Assembly: GCF_009708005.2 (NCBI RefSeq)
Contig: NZ_CP052757.1
Coordinates: 2,728,001-2,792,000, forward strand
From: Cellulosimicrobium protaetiae
Lineage (GTDB): Bacteria; Actinomycetota; Actinomycetes; Actinomycetales; Cellulomonadaceae
DNA: 64,000 nucleotides
Reading direction: 5' to 3'
This document shows positions 1,333-17,280 of this stretch, one piece after another; position 1 is the stretch's first letter; each line of letters starts with the position of its first letter. The position numbers were made by a program, and so were the translations under genes. Under the pieces are notes generated by a model. It saw only the letters and a program-made list of their open reading frames with translations. It was not told the origin of the DNA and did not search any database.

Positions 1333-3282
1333 TCAGGGCAGGTCGGTGAGGGTCCGCTCGCCGTCCGGCCAGTGCACGACGGCAGCTCGGCCTGCCGCCG
1401 TGAGCTCGGGTGCCGGCACCGTGCGGCGCGGGACCGAGGGGAACGTGTCGCGGGGCGGGCCCGCGAGGGTGAGGAGCACGGCGCGCCAGCGTCCGGGCTC
1501 GACGGGCAGGTCGACCACGTCCACCGTGGACCGCGGGCCCAGCGGTGAGGCGTCGCCGCGGTGCTCGCGCCGTACGGCCGGGGCACCCGGCCCCAGCGCC
1601 ACGACGTCGGTGACGAGCCCGTCGCCCGCGACGACGGGCCAGCCGCCCACGCGCAGACGCAGGTCGTGAGGGTCGAGGCCTGCGGCGAGCTCGTCGACGC
1701 GCACGAGGCGCACCTCCCACGGCCCGCGCACGAACGAGACCACCGTGAGCGTGGCCGCGTCGGTCGCGACGCCCGGCAGCCCGGAGCCGTGGTCGCGCCC
1801 GTCCGTGTCGGCGTCGAGCCAGTGCGCGCGCGCCACGGAGCCCGAGACGCCGACGGGCACCCGGCCCGCGCTGTCGTCGACGCGCGTGTCGAGCGAGCGC
1901 CAGCCCGTGCGGTGCGTCGCGCGGCCGGCCGCGTCGACGAGCGTGACGCTCTGGTCGACGGGCGAGACGCGGCTCGCGAGGTCGGACCACGGCGCGGTCG
2001 CGGTCGAGTAGCCGAGGCGGGCGTAGAGCGGGGAGTCGCCGACGCGGTCGCCCTCGCGGGCGTGGTCGGTGCCGTGGTTGACGACGCGCACGACGCCGTC
2101 GGCGCGCGTCCCGCTGACGACCCAGCCGGGGGCGGCGACGGCGCGCAGCACGTCGCCGCGCTCGACGGGCAGCGGTTCCTCGGGCGTCGTCCACGCCGGG
2201 TGGTCGGCGGGCAGGGCGAGCCCGAGCAGACCCTTGCTCGCCCAGTACGGCGAGCCCGGACCGCTGTACGACTGCGAGATCGGCAGCCACTCGTGGTGCC
2301 AGCCCTGCGTGAGCAGGCCCCGCGCGTCGGGCGCGCCGTGGCGTGCGAAGTGGTCGACGACGCCGGACGCCGCACGGCGCAGCAGCCCGGGCGAGTGCGA
2401 CGGGACGTCGGCGATCGCGCCGACCCAGAACGGGGCGGCCGCGGCGAAGCGGTAGGTGAGCGAGCGCCCCTGCAGGAGCGGCGAGCCGTCGGCGCCGACG
2501 AGCGCGAGCGCGTCGTCGAGGAAGCGGTCGAGGAGCTGCACGTCGCGCTCGCGGCGCGGCGCGGCGAGGTCCTCGGCGCCCCGCATGCGGGCCCACAGCG
2601 TGGGGTACAGGTGCAGCGCCCAGCCGGCGTAGTGGTCGTAGGACCGCTCGTCGCCGTCGGCGAGCCAGCCGTCGGCGCGCACGAACGTGTCGTGCGTGGC
2701 GAGGTCCTCGGCCATCTCGTCGAGCGAGTGCGGGCCGCCGACGGAGCGCAGGAAGGTCTGCACGACGAGGCGGAACCAGACCCAGTTGATGCGCGGGTAG
2801 GTGTCGTCGCCGACGGCCTCCGCGAGGTAGTCGACGAGCTGCTCCTGCACGAGCGGCGACAGCCCGTCCCAGATCCACTCGCGCGTGAGGTCGAGCACGA
2901 GCGCGAGCGACGCGGCCTCGACCTTGGCCTGCGCGTGCTCCGAGAGGCGCAGCCACCGGTCGGGCGCGTGCGGGTCGGAGCCGGCGGCGAGGCCCTCGGC
3001 GTACCACTGGGCGTACCCGTGCGGGTCGGCGCCACGCTCGCCGGCGAGGCGGAACCCGGCGAGCAGGAACGTTCGCGCGAACCCCTCGAGGCCGTCGACC
3101 GCGCGGCCGTACCCGCCCTCGGGGCCGGGCAGCGTGATGCGGGCGTGCCCGGGGGAGGCGTAGGGGAGCGCGGACGCGAGCAGGTGGTCGCCGAACGCCG
3201 CCCACCGCGCACGGTCCCACCCGGTGAGGGGGTTCGTGGGGAGCGAGGCGGTCGGCTGCGACCGCGTGCTCTCGAACGTCAT
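1333..3282 (-). CDS. DUF2264 domain-containing protein
   Basis: 649-residue protein matching DUF2264 across its length. The start region LTGWDRARWAAFGDHLL, followed by PGPEGGYGRAVDGLEGFART, is the family signature. No signal peptide is seen, so it is probably cytoplasmic. DUF2264 proteins have an alpha-helical toroid-like N-terminal part and are commonly found in carbohydrate-utilisation loci; the reaction is not established. ATG at 3282 has GGAGG five bases upstream. It is transcribed divergently from the heparinase-like gene and is the first gene of an operon continuing into the sugar-binding lipoprotein. A role in processing imported oligosaccharides is inferred from context. Confidence 0.85.
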   Translation of the reverse strand: MTFESTRSQPTASLPTNPLTGWDRARWAAFGDHLLASALPYASPGHARITLPGPEGGYGRAVDGLEGFARTFLLAGFRLAGERGADPHGYAQWYAEGLAAGSDPHAPDRWLRLSEHAQAKVEAASLALVLDLTREWIWDGLSPLVQEQLVDYLAEAVGDDTYPRINWVWFRLVVQTFLRSVGGPHSLDEMAEDLATHDTFVRADGWLADGDERSYDHYAGWALHLYPTLWARMRGAEDLAAPRRERDVQLLDRFLDDALALVGADGSPLLQGRSLTYRFAAAAPFWVGAIADVPSHSPGLLRRAASGVVDHFARHGAPDARGLLTQGWHHEWLPISQSYSGPGSPYWASKGLLGLALPADHPAWTTPEEPLPVERGDVLRAVAAPGWVVSGTRADGVVRVVNHGTDHAREGDRVGDSPLYARLGYSTATAPWSDLASRVSPVDQSVTLVDAAGRATHRTGWRSLDTRVDDSAGRVPVGVSGSVARAHWLDADTDGRDHGSGLPGVATDAATLTVVSFVRGPWEVRLVRVDELAAGLDPHDLRLRVGGWPVVAGDGLVTDVVALGPGAPAVRREHRGDASPLGPRSTVDVVDLPVEPGRWRAVLLTLAGPPRDTFPSVPRRTVPAPELTAAGRAAVVHWPDGERTLTDLP

Positions 3283-3465
3283 CGTGTCCTCCGTCGTGCG
3301 CCGTGCCTCCGTGCGCGGCGGTCTGTCGTGCTCGTGATGCGGGTCACGGTGTGTGACCGCTCACCGAACACGTTCGGAGTCAATCGCTCAGAAACGGACG
3401 CTGTCAAGTGCGTGCCTATTCTGTTATGATCGTTTCTGATCGTGCTACCGCCTCGACGGAGAGAG
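3283..3465. promoter_or_regulatory. Divergent promoter/operator region of the polysaccharide locus
   Basis: This gap separates the divergent DUF2264 and heparinase-like genes and is visibly richer in AT. It holds an inverted repeat CCGAAC-AC-GTTCGG (3364-3377), a -10-like TATGAT (3425-3430) serving the rightward gene, and a GATCGT direct repeat (3428-3433 and 3438-3443). ATGATCG (3426-3432) overlaps the -10 element and recurs before the GH43-like gene. A TTGACA reads leftward at 3407-3402, but no good -10 follows it. Binding by the DeoR/LacI-type regulator encoded at 5499 is an inference. Confidence 0.45.
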
Positions 3466-5502
3466 ATGTTCACGCCCTTCACCGGCCCGCTCGCCGCGGC
3501 CTTCGACGGCCGGACCGGCGACGCCCCCGCGCGCCGCGACGCCCTCGCGTCCCTGCTCGTCGACCCCGCGCACGCCCTGCCCGTCCCGCCCGCGACCGAC
3601 CGATCGGCCTGGTCGCGGGGCGAGGGGCGCGCCGACCGCGAGACCGTGGCGGCGGTGCTGGCCCGGGCGCGCGACGACCTCGGCACGCCGTGGCCGCTGC
3701 CGCTCGCGAGCACCGCCGCGCGGCTGCACCGCGACGGCAACCGGACGGCGCACGAGGAGCTGGTCTTCACCCGTCAGCAGCGTCTGTCGCGCGCGGTCGT
3801 TGCGGCCGCCGTCACGGGCGAGGACGTCTGGCTCGACGAGGTCGCCGACGGCGTGTTGGCACTGTGCGAGCAGTCGTCGTGGTGCTGGCCGGCGCACGAC
3901 GACGCGTTCGCGACCCGCGGCTGGGTCGTCCCGGACACGGACCGCCCCTACCTCGACCTCGGCGCCGGGGAGGTGGTCGGCCAGCTCGCCTGGACCGACC
4001 ACGTGCTCGGCGACCTCCTCCAGGTGCGCTACCCGGGCCTGCGCGAGCGCGTGCGGGCCGAGGCACGACGCCGCGTGGTCGATCCCTTCGTCGAGCGGCG
4101 CGACTGGCACTGGATCGGCCTCGACGGCGACGTGCACAACTGGAACCCCTGGATCCACGGCAACGTCCTCGTGGCTGCCCTGCGCCTGCTCGACGACCCC
4201 GCCGACGCCGCGCTGCGCGCGCACGTCGTGGAGCTCGCGGTCGAGGGCCTGGACCGGTACGTCGCCGTCCTGCCCGTCGACGGCGCGATCGACGAGGGCT
4301 ACGAGTACTGGTGGAACGGTGCGTGCCGGGCGCTGGAGGCCCTCGACGTGCTCGCGCACGCCACCGGCGGCGCGCTCGACGCGCTCGACCCGGCGGCCCC
4401 CGTGCGCGCGCTGCGGGCGACCGTCGCGTTCCCGCACCGCATGCACCTGGGCGGCGACTGGTACCTCGACCTCGCCGACGGGCGCGCGCGCCCGCCGGTC
4501 GAGCAGCCCTGGCACGCGCTGCACCGTGCCGCGCGCCGGGCCGGCGACGAGGACGCGCGCCGCCACGCGGCGTCGTACCGGGTGCCGGGCGCACCCGTCG
4601 CGGACGAGACCGCGGGCCTGGCGCGGCTCCTGCGCGCCCTGACTGACGACGCGTGGCTCGCCGCGGCGCCGGCCGCGGCGCCCCTGCCGCGCGACGTGTG
4701 GCTCGGCTCCACGCAGGTGCTCCTCGCGCGCGAGCGCGCCGGCAGCCCACGCGGGCTGACGCTGGCGGTCAAGGGCGGGCACAACGGCGAGCACCACAAC
4801 CACAACGACGTCGGCTCGTTCGTCGTCGCGACCGACGGGGTGCCCGTCCTCGTCGACGCGGGCCGCCCCACGTACACGGCGCAGACGTTCGGGCCCGACC
4901 GGTACGCGATCTGGACCATGCAGAGCTCGTGGCACAACGTGCCCGAGGTCGCGGGCACCCCGCAGGAGGCAGGTGAGCGGTTCGCCGCGCGCGACGTGGC
5001 CGTGGGGGACGGCGAGCTGTCGCTCGACCTCGCGGGCGCGTACCCGGTCCTCGGGCCGGCGTCGTGGCGCCGGGCCGCGCGGCTCGAGCGCGACGCCACG
5101 CCCGTCCGGGTCGTGGTCGACGACGAGTGGGACCTCGGCCCGGCCGCGTCGGCCGTCGTGCACCTCGTGCTCGCGGGCGACGTGAGGACCGCGCCCGGCG
5201 AGGCGCGCGTCGTCCCGCTCGACGGCGCGACCCCCGTCGTCGTGCGCTGGCCCGCGGACGTCCCGGTCGACGTGACCGTGCGCGAGCTCGACGACCCCAT
5301 GCTCACCGGTGTCTGGGGCGAGCGCCTGACGCGCCTCGCGCTCGACGCGACCGGCCGCGGACGCCTGCGGGTCGTCGTCGAGCAGGACGACACGCCGGGG
5401 CCTGCGACGCCCAGGACGCCCGCCGGGGGGCTGACCACCGGCATCATCGACCCGACCGGTGGCACCGATGCCGCCGGGACCACCCAGGAGGGGGCACCGT
5501 GA
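3466..5502 (+). CDS. Heparinase II/III family protein
   Basis: 678-residue protein of the heparinase II/III type: an alpha-helical toroid N-terminal half and a beta-rich C-terminal half. The catalytic-region signature EHHNHNDVGSF lies near residue 445, followed by VDAGRPTY and a Trp/His-rich stretch. Family members are polysaccharide lyases acting on uronic-acid-containing glycans. No signal peptide is present, so an intracellular oligosaccharide lyase is likely. ATG at 3466 is preferred over the in-frame GTG at 3442 because GGAGAG lies just before it, although the spacing is short. Its stop overlaps the next gene's GTG by four bases (GTGA). Uronate-capped galactan oligosaccharides are a possible substrate but unproven. 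Confidence 0.85.
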   Translation: MFTPFTGPLAAAFDGRTGDAPARRDALASLLVDPAHALPVPPATDRSAWSRGEGRADRETVAAVLARARDDLGTPWPLPLASTAARLHRDGNRTAHEELVFTRQQRLSRAVVAAAVTGEDVWLDEVADGVLALCEQSSWCWPAHDDAFATRGWVVPDTDRPYLDLGAGEVVGQLAWTDHVLGDLLQVRYPGLRERVRAEARRRVVDPFVERRDWHWIGLDGDVHNWNPWIHGNVLVAALRLLDDPADAALRAHVVELAVEGLDRYVAVLPVDGAIDEGYEYWWNGACRALEALDVLAHATGGALDALDPAAPVRALRATVAFPHRMHLGGDWYLDLADGRARPPVEQPWHALHRAARRAGDEDARRHAASYRVPGAPVADETAGLARLLRALTDDAWLAAAPAAAPLPRDVWLGSTQVLLARERAGSPRGLTLAVKGGHNGEHHNHNDVGSFVVATDGVPVLVDAGRPTYTAQTFGPDRYAIWTMQSSWHNVPEVAGTPQEAGERFAARDVAVGDGELSLDLAGAYPVLGPASWRRAARLERDATPVRVVVDDEWDLGPAASAVVHLVLAGDVRTAPGEARVVPLDGATPVVVRWPADVPVDVTVRELDDPMLTGVWGERLTRLALDATGRGRLRVVVEQDDTPGPATPRTPAGGLTTGIIDPTGGTDAAGTTQEGAP

Positions 5503-10688: not shown

Positions 10689-13274
10689 TCAGCCGCAGTG
10701 CGCGGCGGAGGTCGTGAGGTCGTGCCGGACGTCCACGCGCTCGCCGTCGACGACGGCGCTCGCGGTGACGGTCACGGCGTGCGCGCCGGTGCCGACGGCG
10801 CGCGTCGCGAACGACTGGTACGCGTTCTTCCCGGGGGCGACGGCCGCGACCGTGCGGGAGCCGAACGGCGTCGTGAGGGTCACGTCGACCGGCACCGTGT
10901 CGTCGTTCGTCGCGCGCACCGCGACGTACGCCGAGCCGGCGAGGCACCGCACCTCGGCGTGGGCGACGACGGCGAGCCCCGGCTCGGGGGCGGGGACCGT
11001 GCCCGGGATCGTCAGCTCGCCGATCTTCAGGTACGACCCGGGCGTGTCGAACGTCAGGCGCAGCGAGTCGGTCGTGACCGCGTCGAACGCGACCGAGGTG
11101 CGCGAGCCGTTCGGCCCGGGCGTGACGGCGCTCGCGGTCGTGGGCAGCCAGCGGCCGTCCGCGTCGCGGTGCTCGACGGTGACGCCCGTGATCGTGCCCT
11201 CGGTGTTGGTGAGGTGCACGGCGTCGACGCTCCAGGCCTGGGCGGCGGTCGCGGTGAAGGTCACGCGGTCCTTCTTGCCCGTGCCGCCGGCCCACGTGGA
11301 CCACGCGGTCGCGGGGTCCCCGTCGCACGCGAGCGCGGCGGGCATCGTGCCCCACTCGGTCTGGTGGAACGACGCGCTCACGGTGGTCCCGGGCTCGCGG
11401 CACACGTCCACAGGGCCGTCGACCTGGACGGTCGCCGTGACGTACCGGCCCGCGAGGGGGCCGTCGCCGGCGACGTGCCCGACGAGCGCGTGGGTGCCCC
11501 TCGCGGCGAACGCGGCGTCGAGGCTCGTGGTGCTCCAGTCGGCGGCGAGGCCGTCGTACCGGTTGCCGTCGACCGTGACGTCGAACGTCGGGTCGAACGT
11601 GTCGCGCTCGTCGACGTGGGCGGTGAAACTCAGCGGCTCGACGGGCTCGAGCGGGTGGAACAGGGTCGTGTTCGCGGGGTCCCAGTCCCCGACGTTCTCG
11701 ACCGTGACCCGGCCGTCGTCGCTCACCTGGATCGGCGCCCACACGTACCGTGAGCCCTCGCCCGCCGAGCCGGTCCCCGCGTCGACCGCCCAGCGGTCGC
11801 CCATGTACGCGAAGCGGCCCTCCTCCTGGTCGATCGTCAGGACGAACGTCGGCTGGGAGTCGAAGCAGCGCGTCGGGTCGGCCGTGCCGACGCCGGTGCG
11901 CGCGGCGTCGCCGACGCACGGGTTGCGCGGCTCGAGCCGCTCCCACTGCCCGGTGGACGGGTGCCGGTCGTTGTTCCCGACGACGGCCTCGGTCGGCGTG
12001 ATCATCGAGCGCGACCGGTAGCCGACGACGGGCGTCGAGGCCCAGCCGTCGGTGCCCGACGTGAGCATGTAGTACCAGCCGTCGTGCTTGAACACGCTGG
12101 AGGCCTCACGCGAGAAGTCCGGCAGCACGCGGTGAGAGAAGTCCTCGCCGAGCACGGCGTGGTCGCCCTCGGCGAGCGGGCCCGTGTACTCGGCGTTGAG
12201 CCGGGACACGTACATCCACTTGTTCATCTCGGAGGAGTAGACGGCGTACGCGTCGTCGGCGACCGGGTCGACGGCGTGCTCGCCCGCGTCCTGGAACACC
12301 GTCATGTCACGCGAGTCGCCCTCGCGGCCGGTGTTCGGGACGCCCTGCGCCCAGTTCATCTTCGTCGTGCTGACGAGCTTGAACGGGCCCCACGGCGTGT
12401 CGGACGTCGCGAACCCGATCTCGGCGCGCGAGTAGCGCGAGCCGATGTTGCGGTCCGCCGGGTCGCCGCCCGCGCGCACCCAGCGCACGAGGTCCGCGTT
12501 GTCGGGCAGCGGTCCGTCGGCGTGGTAGATGATGACGAACTTGCGGGTCTTGGCGTTCCAGAGCATCTTCGGACGCTCCATGATGTTGATGTTGCCGTTG
12601 AGGCGGTAGGTCGCGTTCGACAGCGCCGTCTCGTCGTACGTGGCGGCGACGCCCGCGGCCTCGTCGGCCCACGTCGCGACGTACGGCGCGACGACGTCCT
12701 TCGCGGCGTCGATCTGCGCCTGCGTGGACGTCGCGTCGGGCGCGGTCTTGTTCGCGACCGCCTTGAGCGCCTCGACCTTCGCCGGGTCGACCTCGACCGC
12801 CGTGCCAGCGGCGTTCACGCGCAGCGTGAGCTGCTGGTGGCTCGGCAGCACGAGGCCCATGTCGTGCCACGTCGTGAGGTCCGTGGACCAGTAGCCGCGC
12901 ACGCCGTCGACGGGCCGTGTCGCGTGCGTCTTGTCCTCGCCGTACCAGAGGTGGACCTCCTGGTCGGTGTTCCCGTCACCGGTGATGTCGAGGCCGACCT
13001 CGGCCTCGCGCACCGTGACGACGGAGCCGCCGTGGGCCCTGATCGCGTCACCGTCGGTGTCGGTCCAGACCGTGCCGTCGGGGGCGGGGACGGTCCCCGC
13101 CGCCGCGCCTGGGCTCGCGGTGGTCGCGACCGGAGTGGTCGTCGGTGCCGTGGCTGCCGTGGCGGGAGCGACGGCGAGCGTCGCGCCGACCGCGAGGGCG
13201 GTCGCGGCGGCATGGATCGGGCCGGGGCGTCGGCGGTGACGTGGTGGTCGACGGTCGGGTGCGGCAGCGGGCAC
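10689..13274 (-). CDS. Secreted GH43-like enzyme (exo-beta-1,3-galactanase-like, GH43_24 type) with discoidin-type domain
   Basis: 861 residues with an Arg-rich n-region and Ala-rich signal peptide (about 1-42). Residues about 70-520 look like a five-bladed propeller of the GH43_24 kind: IRAHGGSV, HLWYGEDKT, YWSTDLTTWHDMGLVL, MERPKMLWN, SRDMTVFQD and AVYSSEMN. An Ig-like part and a discoidin/F5-8-type carbohydrate-binding domain follow (about 620-765). The C-terminal 95 residues match the C-terminus of the GH59 protein. Characterised GH43_24 enzymes release galactose from beta-1,3-galactan. GTG at 13274 has AAGGAGAT seven bases upstream. It is first in a two-gene operon with GH59. Exact specificity cannot be read from sequence. 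Confidence 0.75.
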   Translation of the reverse strand: MPAAAPDRRPPRHRRRPGPIHAAATALAVGATLAVAPATAATAPTTTPVATTASPGAAAGTVPAPDGTVWTDTDGDAIRAHGGSVVTVREAEVGLDITGDGNTDQEVHLWYGEDKTHATRPVDGVRGYWSTDLTTWHDMGLVLPSHQQLTLRVNAAGTAVEVDPAKVEALKAVANKTAPDATSTQAQIDAAKDVVAPYVATWADEAAGVAATYDETALSNATYRLNGNINIMERPKMLWNAKTRKFVIIYHADGPLPDNADLVRWVRAGGDPADRNIGSRYSRAEIGFATSDTPWGPFKLVSTTKMNWAQGVPNTGREGDSRDMTVFQDAGEHAVDPVADDAYAVYSSEMNKWMYVSRLNAEYTGPLAEGDHAVLGEDFSHRVLPDFSREASSVFKHDGWYYMLTSGTDGWASTPVVGYRSRSMITPTEAVVGNNDRHPSTGQWERLEPRNPCVGDAARTGVGTADPTRCFDSQPTFVLTIDQEEGRFAYMGDRWAVDAGTGSAGEGSRYVWAPIQVSDDGRVTVENVGDWDPANTTLFHPLEPVEPLSFTAHVDERDTFDPTFDVTVDGNRYDGLAADWSTTSLDAAFAARGTHALVGHVAGDGPLAGRYVTATVQVDGPVDVCREPGTTVSASFHQTEWGTMPAALACDGDPATAWSTWAGGTGKKDRVTFTATAAQAWSVDAVHLTNTEGTITGVTVEHRDADGRWLPTTASAVTPGPNGSRTSVAFDAVTTDSLRLTFDTPGSYLKIGELTIPGTVPAPEPGLAVVAHAEVRCLAGSAYVAVRATNDDTVPVDVTLTTPFGSRTVAAVAPGKNAYQSFATRAVGTGAHAVTVTASAVVDGERVDVRHDLTTSAAHCG

Positions 13275-13913: not shown

Positions 13914-13979
13914 CGGGCTGCTGGCACGGCCGCGCGTCCTCGCGGTCGGCCCGCCGGCGTCGCCGTAGGGTCGGTGGCC

Positions 13980-14528
13980 ATGACCGACCTCCCGCTCGCC
14001 CCCAGCCAGGACGCCTTCCCGACCCACGTCTTCGACGCCTTCGGTGTCCCTCCGGCCGTGCTGGACGAACGCATCGGCGGCTCGGTCATGGTCGTGGCCA
14101 AGCAGCCGGTCGACGGTCCTCTCACCCTCCTCACGGCGGGTGTCTCCCGGCTGCCGGTCGACGCCGGTCCGCCGGTCGAGCTGGCGGTCGAGGTCGTCGA
14201 GGGCCAGGAGGGCGCCGCGCTCGTCGCCCTGCGGATCGTGTGCGACGACATCGCCGTCAACCGTCGCACCCCACCTTTCGAGACACCGTGGCGCAACCGG
14301 GAGCCGTTCCTGTCCGGGACGCGGATCTCGGCGATCATGGCGACGGGCTCGCGGTGGGGCGCCGCGCTGGACGACGTGCTCGACCCGGCGGGGGACGTGG
14401 TCGGCCACGTCCGTACCTTGCGGCTGCTCACCGACGCGGAGGCGCAGACCGCCTCGAGCGTCGGGTGGTCGGGTCTCGTCGAGCAGGTCGGGTCGGTCGA
14501 CGCCCTCCTCGACGTCACCCGCGCGTGA
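13980..14528 (+). CDS. Small protein, possibly suppressor-of-fused (SUFU)-like
   Basis: 182-residue soluble protein. The pattern VMVVAKQPVDGPLTLLTAGV-SRLPVDAGPPVELAVEV resembles the SUFU-like fold found in bacterial proteins, several of which are immunity proteins of polymorphic toxins. That assignment is tentative. ATG at 13980 is favoured over the GTG at 13974 because TAGGGT (13966-13971) lies eight bases upstream, consistent with leaderless transcription. No toxin gene is adjacent. It lies convergent to the dockerin-bearing amidase gene. Confidence 0.55.
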   Translation: MTDLPLAPSQDAFPTHVFDAFGVPPAVLDERIGGSVMVVAKQPVDGPLTLLTAGVSRLPVDAGPPVELAVEVVEGQEGAALVALRIVCDDIAVNRRTPPFETPWRNREPFLSGTRISAIMATGSRWGAALDDVLDPAGDVVGHVRTLRLLTDAEAQTASSVGWSGLVEQVGSVDALLDVTRA

Positions 14529-14611: not shown

Positions 14612-16462
14612 TCAGCCGAGCGGGCCGTAGAGCGCCGGGGAGGTCCGGGCGTGCGTCGCCTGCTCGAGCGCGAACGCGAGGCCGAGGAGCGGGCCCTCGT
14701 CGAAGTCACGCCCGAGCAGCTCGAGGTTGACGCCGCCGCCCGTGACGGTGGCGTCGGCCGCCGTCGCCTGGCCGATCGGCACCGTCACGGCGGGGAGGCC
14801 AGTGTTGGGGCTGAGCCGCAGGTTGGTGCCGATGGTCCCGTACGGGTTCGCGCTGGGGTAGACGAGCGCGTCGAGGTCGGCGTCGTCGAGCATCGCGGTG
14901 ACGAGCTGCTTGCCCTCGGCGAGCACCTTCGTGTGCGAGCCCTCGGGCCCGGCCCACGCCTGGTACGTCTCCTCGGTGATCGCGGCGCGCGACACGTAGG
15001 TGCTGCGCCGCGACGGGACGAAGCGACCCGACTCGACGATGCCCTCCAGCGACCGTGCCTCGACCTCGGGGGCGAGGTGGCCCGCGACGTACGCGTCGAG
15101 GTCGTGCCGGAACTCGTTGGTCGAGCCCGAGCCCTCGCTCAGCACGCTCGCGAACCCGTTCGGGAGCACGGGCGACCAGGTCGTGGGGGGCGTGACCTCG
15201 ACCACGGTGGCGCCCAGCGACTCGAGCGTGGCCCGGGTCTGCGTCCACAGGCGCAGGGTCGTGGCGTTGCTCCCCAGCATGGACGGCACGTAGCCGATGC
15301 GGGCGCCGTCGAGCGCGTCCGCGTCCAGGTACTGCGTGTACGAGGCGGGGACCGCGCCCTCCTGGCGCGACGTCACAGGGTCCGCCGGGTCGACGCCCAC
15401 GACCGCGTCGAGCGCGACGGCCGCGTCGAGGATGCTACGGGCCATCGGCCCGCCCGTGTCCTGGCTCAGCGCGAGCGGGATGATCCCGTCCCGGCTCGCG
15501 AGGCCCACGGTCGGGCGCACGCCCACGAGCTGGTTGTACGACGACGGCACGCGGATCGAGCCGCCCGTGTCCGTGCCGAACCCGAGCCCTGCGAGGTTCG
15601 CGGCGATCGCCGCGCCCGTGCCGCCGCTCGACCCGCCGGCCGTGCGGCTCGTGACGTACGGGCTCGCGACGAGCGTGCTCGTCCCCGCGTCCTGGTACGA
15701 CGAGAACTCGGACACGAAGCCGAACGCGAACTCGTCGAGGCTCGCCTTGGCCAGGACCACAGCCCCGTCGGCGCGCAGCCCCTCGACCATCGTCGCGTCC
15801 GTGGCGGTCTGGTTGCCGTCCCAGCACCCGCAGCCGCCGGTCGTGGGCATGTCCTTCGTGTCGTAGTTGTCCTTGACGGCGACGGGCACGCCGAGGAGCA
15901 GGCTCGTCATGCCGTCCGCGGCCCGTGCCGCGTCCGCGCGCGCAGCGGCCTCGAGCGCGACGTCGCTCGTCGTGATGATCGAGTGCAGGGGTCGCCCGCC
16001 CGCGCCCGTGTCGACGAGCGTCGTGTCGTAGGCAGCGATGCGGTCCAGGTACTCCTGGGTGATCGCGACCGACGAGGTGACCCCGGCGTTCATCGCCTCC
16101 TGCATGTCGAGCACCGAGGCCTCGACGAGCTCGAATGGCCCGTCGTCGTAGATCATCCGCTGGGAGACGGCCGCGAGGTCCGCGACGGTGATCGTGCCGT
16201 CGCGGTCCGTGTCGGCCGCCGCGGCGTCGTCCCACGCGGCGTCGTCGGCCGTCGCGCCGAGCGCCGCCGCGACGACGTCGAGGTCGTCGGCGGTCACCTG
16301 CTCGTCGCCCGTGAGGTCGAGCTCGGTCCAGTACGGCGCGAGGAACGGCGCGGCGGCGGGTGCCGCCGTCGCGGCGGGAGCCGCGGCGACGGTCAGCACG
16401 AGGGCGGTGACGGTGAGCGCGGCGAGACCGCCCGCCGCGGCTCGTCGGTGGGTGGTGGGCAC
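14612..16462 (-). CDS. Secreted amidase-signature hydrolase with N-terminal dockerin-like module
   Basis: 616 residues. A signal peptide (about 1-37) is followed by a dockerin-like pair of calcium loops, D49-LTGDEQVTAD-D60 and D84-TDRDGTITVA-D95, and then by a complete amidase-signature domain. The Ser-cisSer-Lys triad is intact: Lys197 in VAVKDNYD, Ser279 in GGSSGG and Ser302 in DTGGSIR. The family hydrolyses amide bonds; the substrate is unknown. GTG at 16462 has GGAG seven bases upstream and gives a normal signal peptide. An ATG at 16537 overlaps the stop of the upstream cohesin-like gene but yields an overlong n-region. It is the second gene of a two-gene operon, suggesting the enzyme docks on its neighbour. 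Confidence 0.85.
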   Translation of the reverse strand: MPTTHRRAAAGGLAALTVTALVLTVAAAPAATAAPAAAPFLAPYWTELDLTGDEQVTADDLDVVAAALGATADDAAWDDAAAADTDRDGTITVADLAAVSQRMIYDDGPFELVEASVLDMQEAMNAGVTSSVAITQEYLDRIAAYDTTLVDTGAGGRPLHSIITTSDVALEAAARADAARAADGMTSLLLGVPVAVKDNYDTKDMPTTGGCGCWDGNQTATDATMVEGLRADGAVVLAKASLDEFAFGFVSEFSSYQDAGTSTLVASPYVTSRTAGGSSGGTGAAIAANLAGLGFGTDTGGSIRVPSSYNQLVGVRPTVGLASRDGIIPLALSQDTGGPMARSILDAAVALDAVVGVDPADPVTSRQEGAVPASYTQYLDADALDGARIGYVPSMLGSNATTLRLWTQTRATLESLGATVVEVTPPTTWSPVLPNGFASVLSEGSGSTNEFRHDLDAYVAGHLAPEVEARSLEGIVESGRFVPSRRSTYVSRAAITEETYQAWAGPEGSHTKVLAEGKQLVTAMLDDADLDALVYPSANPYGTIGTNLRLSPNTGLPAVTVPIGQATAADATVTGGGVNLELLGRDFDEGPLLGLAFALEQATHARTSPALYGPLG

Positions 16463-16533
16463 GGGCTGCTCCTTCGTGGTGAGGGGCCGTCGGTGAGCGC
16501 GGACGGCGGGTGCGCCGGTCGTCGGGTCAGGGC

Positions 16534-17280
16534 TCATCGGGAGGCCACCGCCCGGCGACGTGCCCAGAGGATCCCGGCGCCCACCACGACGGCGAGGAGC
16601 GCGGCGCCCGCGAACCAGGCGACGCTCGCGCCCGTCGAGGCGAGCGAGCCCGAGCCGGCCGAGGTCGACGGCGAGTCGGACGCGTCGTCGGTCCCGGGGG
16701 CGGTCGTGCCGTCACCGGTCGGGGGCGCGGAGGTCGCGCCGTCCGTCGGGTCGTCGGTGGGTGGCGCCGTCGTGACGGCCGTGACGGTCGTCGTGGCGGA
16801 CGCGGCATCGGTGAGCGACGCGGTCGCGGCGTCGGCGCCGACGAGGGTGGCAGCCGGGACGGCGAACGGGGCGTCGCCGTCGGCCACGGCGGTGAACGTG
16901 AGCGTCGCGAGCGTGACGTCGCCCTCGAGACCGGGGGACGTGCCGAGCCGCGTGTGCGCGACGGCGACGGTCCCGGCCCCGTCGTCGGCGACGTCGGAGA
17001 ACCCGCCGTCGGGCATGACCGCGGAGTCCGCGACGAGCTCGACGAGGTCGGGGTCGTAGGAGACCGCCAGGTCGTAGGCGTAGAGGTCGACGGCGCCGGT
17101 CGCAGCGACGGTCACCGTGACCGGGGCGCCCACTTCGACGCTCGACGGCCCGTCGAGGGTCACGTCGGAGACGGACGGTGCGGCGTGCGCGGGGGCGGTG
17201 AGGGCGGTCGCGGCGACCGCCAGGCCGCCGACGAGCGCGGCGCGCCGGCCGAGCCGTCGGCGCGAGGAGGAGTGGGTCAT
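16534..17280 (-). CDS. Cell-wall-anchored cohesin-like protein (LAXTG sorting signal)
   Basis: 248 residues. A signal peptide with paired arginines (GRRAALVGG) is followed by a cohesin-like beta-sandwich at about 35-165: VGAPVTVTVAATG, YAYDLAVSYDPDLVELV, TLATLTFTAVADG. Next come a Pro/Thr/Asp/Ser-rich linker (about 166-210), the motif LASTG (213-217), a transmembrane helix and a basic tail (WARRRAVASR). LAXTG is the usual signal of actinobacterial class E sortases. Cohesins bind dockerins, and the next gene in the operon, 71 bases away, encodes a dockerin-like module on an amidase. An AGGAAGGA box lies about 12 bases before ATG 17280, a long spacing. The cohesin assignment is by pattern, not by search. 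Confidence 0.8.
   Translation of the reverse strand: MTHSSSRRRLGRRAALVGGLAVAATALTAPAHAAPSVSDVTLDGPSSVEVGAPVTVTVAATGAVDLYAYDLAVSYDPDLVELVADSAVMPDGGFSDVADDGAGTVAVAHTRLGTSPGLEGDVTLATLTFTAVADGDAPFAVPAATLVGADAATASLTDAASATTTVTAVTTAPPTDDPTDGATSAPPTGDGTTAPGTDDASDSPSTSAGSGSLASTGASVAWFAGAALLAVVVGAGILWARRRAVASR

Follow-up and report, generated by a model that had tools for sequence, protein, structure and literature searches.

Two adjoining genes in the 4.78 Mb genome of Cellulosimicrobium protaetiae probably make up a system for displaying a single enzyme on the cell surface, independent of any cellulosome, in which a cohesin on the cell wall docks a dockerin-bearing amidase. Both lie on the minus strand of the 64,000-nucleotide stretch of DNA analysed here (the window; 69-77% G+C). 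Observed are the domain make-up of the two proteins, the cohesin fold, the intact triad of the amidase, a class E sortase gene, the joint presence and adjacency of the two genes across genomes, and their natural fusions. The product of gene 1 would be exported and probably joined to the cell wall at its LASTG end by a class E sortase, with its single cohesin facing outward on a flexible linker. The gene 2 product, a peptide-amidase-like hydrolase, would also be exported; its N-terminal dockerin would fold on two calcium ions and bind the gene 1 cohesin, and the docked amidase would be kept on the wall and not lost by diffusion. Its substrate would most likely be terminal or side-chain peptide amides, for nitrogen or peptide use. 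We infer docking and wall localization, and likewise calcium dependence and substrate.

The genes and a probable anchoring route

Both open reading frames lie where an earlier note on this DNA had placed them. Gene 1 (16534 to 17280) encodes a protein of 248 residues with a signal peptide read by eye (about residues 1-34; 17179 to 17280), a Pfam cohesin domain (residues 40-160; 16801 to 17163), a Pro/Thr-rich linker, the sorting motif LASTG (residues 213-217; 16630 to 16644), which is kept in relatives, a hydrophobic stretch that by eye is a membrane helix (residues 222-239; 16564 to 16617), and a basic tail with RRR (residues 240-248; 16537 to 16563). The match to Pfam Cohesin (PF00963) scores 39.5 bits against a cut-off of 24.1, or 40.8 bits in the whole-genome search, and the cohesin jelly-roll fold, which the earlier note had set as a test of its cohesin-like region, is present. 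The C-terminal LAXTG, membrane helix and basic tail that the note had read are likewise there in the sequence and have the layout of a class E sortase substrate, with the NCBIfam LAVTG sorting-signal model scoring 24.1 bits, slightly below its cut-off of 27. Class E sortases are reported to display proteins with LAXTG signals (PMC5148588), and the enzyme that this route needs is encoded elsewhere in the genome (NF033747, 215.7 bits, cut-off 160). A second sortase is nearest to class F but scores 117.2 bits, under the cut-off of 166; its gene (1760-3717, minus strand, of locus L200) adjoins a gene whose exported product has, by eye, a membrane stretch at its C-terminus.

Gene 2 (14612 to 16462) follows gene 1 on the same strand after a gap of 71 bases. 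Its open reading frame of 641 codons opens at 16537, and the true start is likely a GTG at 16462, six bases past AAGGAG (16469 to 16474), a likely ribosome-binding site, because a Val is conserved at this position in relatives whose upstream sequences differ. From that start, a signal peptide of about 33 residues (16364 to 16462) can be read by eye; residue numbers below are those of the longer frame. The dockerin-like module occupies residues 74-127 (16157 to 16318), and the amidase signature domain residues 159-636 (14630 to 16063), with the best Pfam stretch at 159-505 and an NCBIfam match reaching 636.

A search of the whole genome (E up to 1) finds one cohesin and one dockerin, adjoining, the latter borne by the amidase, and because there is one of each, a wall-linked cohesin that docks the amidase is the simplest reading. 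A cellulosome, with a multi-cohesin scaffoldin and several dockerin-bearing glycosidases, was considered and rejected, as the genome yields one cohesin, one dockerin and no dockerin-bearing glycosidase. Neighbouring GH43 and MFS genes were not taken as parts of the module, since neighbour families other than the pair occur in at most 11 of the 80 related loci described below. The downstream gene (10689 to 13274, minus strand) encodes an exported enzyme that combines a GH43-like region (31.8 bits, slightly below the cut-off of 32.2) and an F5/8 type C domain, and a plus-strand frame at 13974 to 14528, which has a weak SUFU-domain match (19.4 bits, cut-off 25), adjoins a frame of 157 residues that matches no Pfam family at E up to 0.01. 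A promoter and terminator scan found nothing, and a plasmid search found only amidases of less than 60% identity.

Joint occurrence in related genomes

The earlier note had made conservation of the pair a test of its proposal, and the two genes are conserved together. Both modules are present in all 17 genomes sampled from the genus. Among 150 genomes of the family the cohesin is found in 24 and a Pfam dockerin in 26, and an amidase orthologue was seen in those 24 genomes with both modules and, as a distant match, in G076. In 21 of the 24 the two modules are neighbours on a single contig; in the other three (G134, G040 and G140) each lies at a contig end. Gene order is reversed, with the dockerin-amidase first, in G023, G043 and G058. 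A Pfam dockerin with no cohesin found was seen in G122 and G037, and G058 has a second Pfam dockerin. Most of the sampled Cellulomonas relatives may well be without the pair.

In a wider sample of 297 genomes of the order, 17 carry the cohesin, and the full dockerin occurs in those 17 and no others; they come from 11 of 95 genera, and every pair is on one contig within 2 kb. Neither partner was seen without the other in a search to E 1e-5 that scored no more than 13 to 16 candidates per genome. This count omits an eighteenth genome, G784, in which the match spans model positions 68-100 only and the protein (L194) is a different amidase without a dockerin; in G599 the weaker of two matches (28.9 bits) likewise falls on a different amidase (L195). 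The chance that two independent sets of 17 overlap exactly is about 5e-28, a figure that, with related genomes and linked genes, serves only as a guide. Of 396 genomes sampled across the phylum, just four, including the window's own, have a Pfam cohesin match.

Genome contigs were also scanned with the amidase, and the best 80 of 458 relatives were analysed, some of them from genomes already counted above. A dockerin profile matches all 80, one (L136) only partly, and an adjacent cohesin profile match is found in 73; the other seven have fewer than 450 bases upstream before the contig ends. The titles of the loci carry 19 genus names, including Microbacterium, Curtobacterium, Leifsonia, Mycetocola, Georgenia, Cellulomonas and Nocardioides, and several loci are metagenome bins. 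The genus count omits a Stenotrophomonas label that is probably contamination: the dockerin-amidase on a 3.6 kb contig titled Stenotrophomonas maltophilia P13 (L150) looks actinobacterial. A crude gene caller, which recovered the cohesin family itself in only 32 of the 80 loci, found no family other than the pair in more than 11 of them; because of this crudeness, the count by homology (73 of 80) is the better one for the pair.

In these relatives, each of the 70 cohesins compared (a set that omits L098, L136 and L165) carries the motif [TS][RK]LGxSP, and 67 of 69 cohesin genes (L157 also omitted) have the sorting motif LxxTG, as LAxTG in 54 and LPxTG in eight. Of the remaining two, one has LATGG and the other, from Isoptericola sp. 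AK164 (L103, 7896-8285), has no sorting signal, the pair being present there with the cohesin gene downstream of the amidase. In Microbacterium sp. Marseille-Q6648 (L136, 4780-7641) the cohesin frame stops before the anchor and the dockerin is without its second calcium loop; this apparent damage to both partners could be an assembly error or joint decay.

Several matches fall on other kinds of proteins. Cohesin matches lie in frames of about 2,100-2,200 residues in three genomes of about 2 Mb from another actinobacterial family (L084, L085 and L086). In other genomes of the family, G122 and G037 among them, Pfam dockerin matches were seen on frames of 1375 residues (L076, 3486-7610) and 1850 residues (L077, 1593-7142), and one on a 222-residue frame (L083, 6507-7172) looks weak.

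Possible substrate, putative docking module and natural fusions

Gene 2 belongs to the amidase signature family (PF01425, 257.8 bits), and the Ser-cisSer-Lys triad is intact, as had been noted from the window alone: Lys222, cisSer304 and Ser327 (spanning 15557 to 15874), which we take to be catalytic as in other amidases of the family, are unchanged in 81 of 81 sequences (the window and the 80 loci). The closest solved chain is Pam, a peptide amidase from Stenotrophomonas maltophilia (PDB 1m21, 5ac3; E 1.3e-60), whose triad is of the same type and which, to our knowledge, has neither a dockerin nor a wall-anchored partner. The best-scoring NCBIfam model, PRK08137, gives 312.6 bits, under its cut-off of 534; the enzyme is thus related to the Pam-type peptide amidase group without being an established member of it, and because of this score its substrate is a guess. 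An unlikely alternative is the same docking with another target, namely amidated stems or cross-bridges in the peptidoglycan of the cell itself in place of outside peptides. Such a target would suit the inferred wall location and the lack, among the 80 loci, of a conserved neighbour gene suggesting an outside substrate; however, peptide amidase, the closest solved enzyme, acts on C-terminal peptide amides, and a patchy presence in 17 of 297 order genomes is ill-suited to a basic wall function.

The identity of the calcium module bears on the docking itself. Its match to Pfam Dockerin_1 (PF00404) is 23.2 bits in the window, barely above the cut-off of 22.9, and reaches 34.9 bits in relatives, with scores above the cut-off in 24 of the 26 family genomes that match. 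The earlier note had described two perfect calcium loops. This is very nearly so: loop 2 (residues 109-120; 16178 to 16213) is canonical (D-x-D-x-D...D), while loop 1 (residues 74-85; 16283 to 16318) has Thr at position 3, a position that is Ser or Thr in 80 of 80 related loci. Allowing D or close substitutes at positions 3 and 5, the loop pattern is found in 80 of 80 related loci for loop 1 and 79 of 80 for loop 2.

It is rather improbable, in our estimate, that this module braces the amidase structurally, in the manner of an EF-hand, and makes no contact with the cohesin, the two being co-expressed surface proteins of one process. Type I dockerins differ from EF-hand pairs in that their paired F-hands lack E helices. 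Three sequence searches of solved structures with the module give calmodulins as the nearest chains, with no dockerin among the best 60 of 186-204 matches in each, and EF-hand_7 also matches 42 of the 52 aligned 100-residue members at E up to 0.1. Dockerin_1, in contrast, matches all 52 at the same threshold, with a best E of 3.4e-10 against 1.3e-6 for EF-hand_7, and in all 52 rows each loop has Asp both at position 1 and at position 12, whereas canonical EF-hands have Glu at position 12. Cohesins with known partners bind dockerins, and the failure to find either partner alone among the order genomes (E up to 1e-5) also argues against a brace. We therefore call the module dockerin-like, on the strength of its score above the Pfam threshold and its constant cohesin partner, the likeness being weaker against solved structures. 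The trees of the two modules carry no signal beyond that of the amidase: across 71 pairs, the partial correlation of cohesin and dockerin given the amidase is 0.217, and 23 of 60 null values from amidase segments (mean 0.158, sd 0.122) are at least as high.

Three natural proteins have both modules in one chain. In Microbacterium sp. 2FI (L157), a signal peptide, cohesin, dockerin and amidase are in one frame with no anchor; in Nocardioides cremeus (L165), dockerin, amidase and cohesin share a frame that breaks later; and in a 69%-complete genome (G715, locus L198), a single frame of 980 residues runs from dockerin through amidase and cohesin to LAVTG, a membrane helix and a basic tail. Pfam confirms the cohesin in L157 and L198; that of L165 has no Pfam cohesin match and is called by the family profile (107 bits). 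Module calls beyond Pfam in these fusions come from family profiles: Pfam dockerin scores of 21.0 bits (L198) and 17.2 bits (L165) are both under the cut-off, and full-length L157 has no Pfam dockerin match at E up to 0.1. In L136, too, a single frame can be read through cohesin and amidase, but the anchor lies in a different frame, and the locus was therefore left out of the fusions. An AlphaFold2 model of the L157 fusion (pLDDT 50.8) was too poor to use, its alignment including shifted self-reads of L157 and few amidase rows.

Fusion of this kind is classically read as a sign of joint action by the separate proteins, and it raises the question of why both modules stay once they are joined. 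The fusions also count against the display model, as both modules share a chain and docking is not needed for anchoring; the AK164 cohesin and the L194 amidase, both without an anchor, weigh on the same side. We consider it very unlikely that cohesins and dockerins of neighbouring molecules, or of one fused chain, chiefly link amidases into chains or clusters with anchoring secondary, for while the three fusions and the missing wall anchors of L157 and AK164 would fit such self-assembly, most of the 73 loci encode two proteins with one module each, which permits pairing but not chaining, and the LxxTG anchor is retained in 67 of 69 separate cohesin genes.

Of three distant amidases seen without a dockerin, two have other anchors. 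One (L195, 1283-4444) has a C-terminal LPSTG followed by a hydrophobic tail, scored by the Pfam anchor model at 18.0 bits (cut-off 20), and a weak Big_3_5 match, another (L197, 2792-6388) has SLH repeats (82.7 bits), and no anchor was seen in the third, L194. The anchors of L195 and L197 would fit a need to hold such enzymes at the surface.

Relation to known cohesin-dockerin systems

The cohesin and dockerin of the archaeon Archaeoglobus fulgidus are, like the window pair, non-cellulosomal, but are not known to have a sortase anchor or an amidase. Also non-cellulosomal, and closest to the window cohesin by sequence and fold, are the cohesins of Clostridium perfringens GH84C and GH33, which lie inside secreted glycosidases and join exoenzymes to one another, whereas the window cohesin is a small and probably wall-anchored receptor for an amidase. 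Gene 1 would resemble ScaE of Ruminococcus flavefaciens in being a sortase-linked wall cohesin protein, but ScaE belongs to a large cellulosome and the window system is a single enzyme with no scaffoldin. Ruminococcus cellulosomes are described as often attached to the wall by a sortase-linked cohesin protein (PMC11557425).

The genome of Cellulosimicrobium cellulans F16 is stated to hold no cohesin or dockerin modules (PMC4562250), and much the same is said of three Cellulomonas genomes (PMC3544764). The presence of the pair in every one of the genus genomes sampled, which are of strains other than theirs, calls for caution with such statements of absence. A search of 305,693 genomes for multi-cohesin proteins with dockerin glycosidases would by its design pass over this pair (PMC11557425). 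Within the open-access literature, as distinct from subscription journals, no description of a cohesin-dockerin amidase pair was found among the matches listed, in agreement with the earlier remark that no amidase handled in this way had been described. A 2009 survey of non-cellulosomal modules may list some of these proteins.

On balance we favour, with less assurance than for the window pair itself, a class of cohesin-dockerin systems across the Micrococcales that is not directed at cellulose, in which a sortase-anchored single cohesin (TRLGTSP) would hold a calcium-folded dockerin-amidase on the wall, the two being joined in some lineages in a single chain that may dock on itself or on neighbours. 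Such a small natural pair would lend itself to tests of docking specificity and may offer surface display a new orthogonal pair. Cohesin-dockerin contacts have been studied mainly in anaerobic builders of cellulosomes; here they would serve soil and plant actinobacteria as a stand-alone device of one socket and one enzyme, with a cargo that is not a glycosidase and a known route of anchoring.
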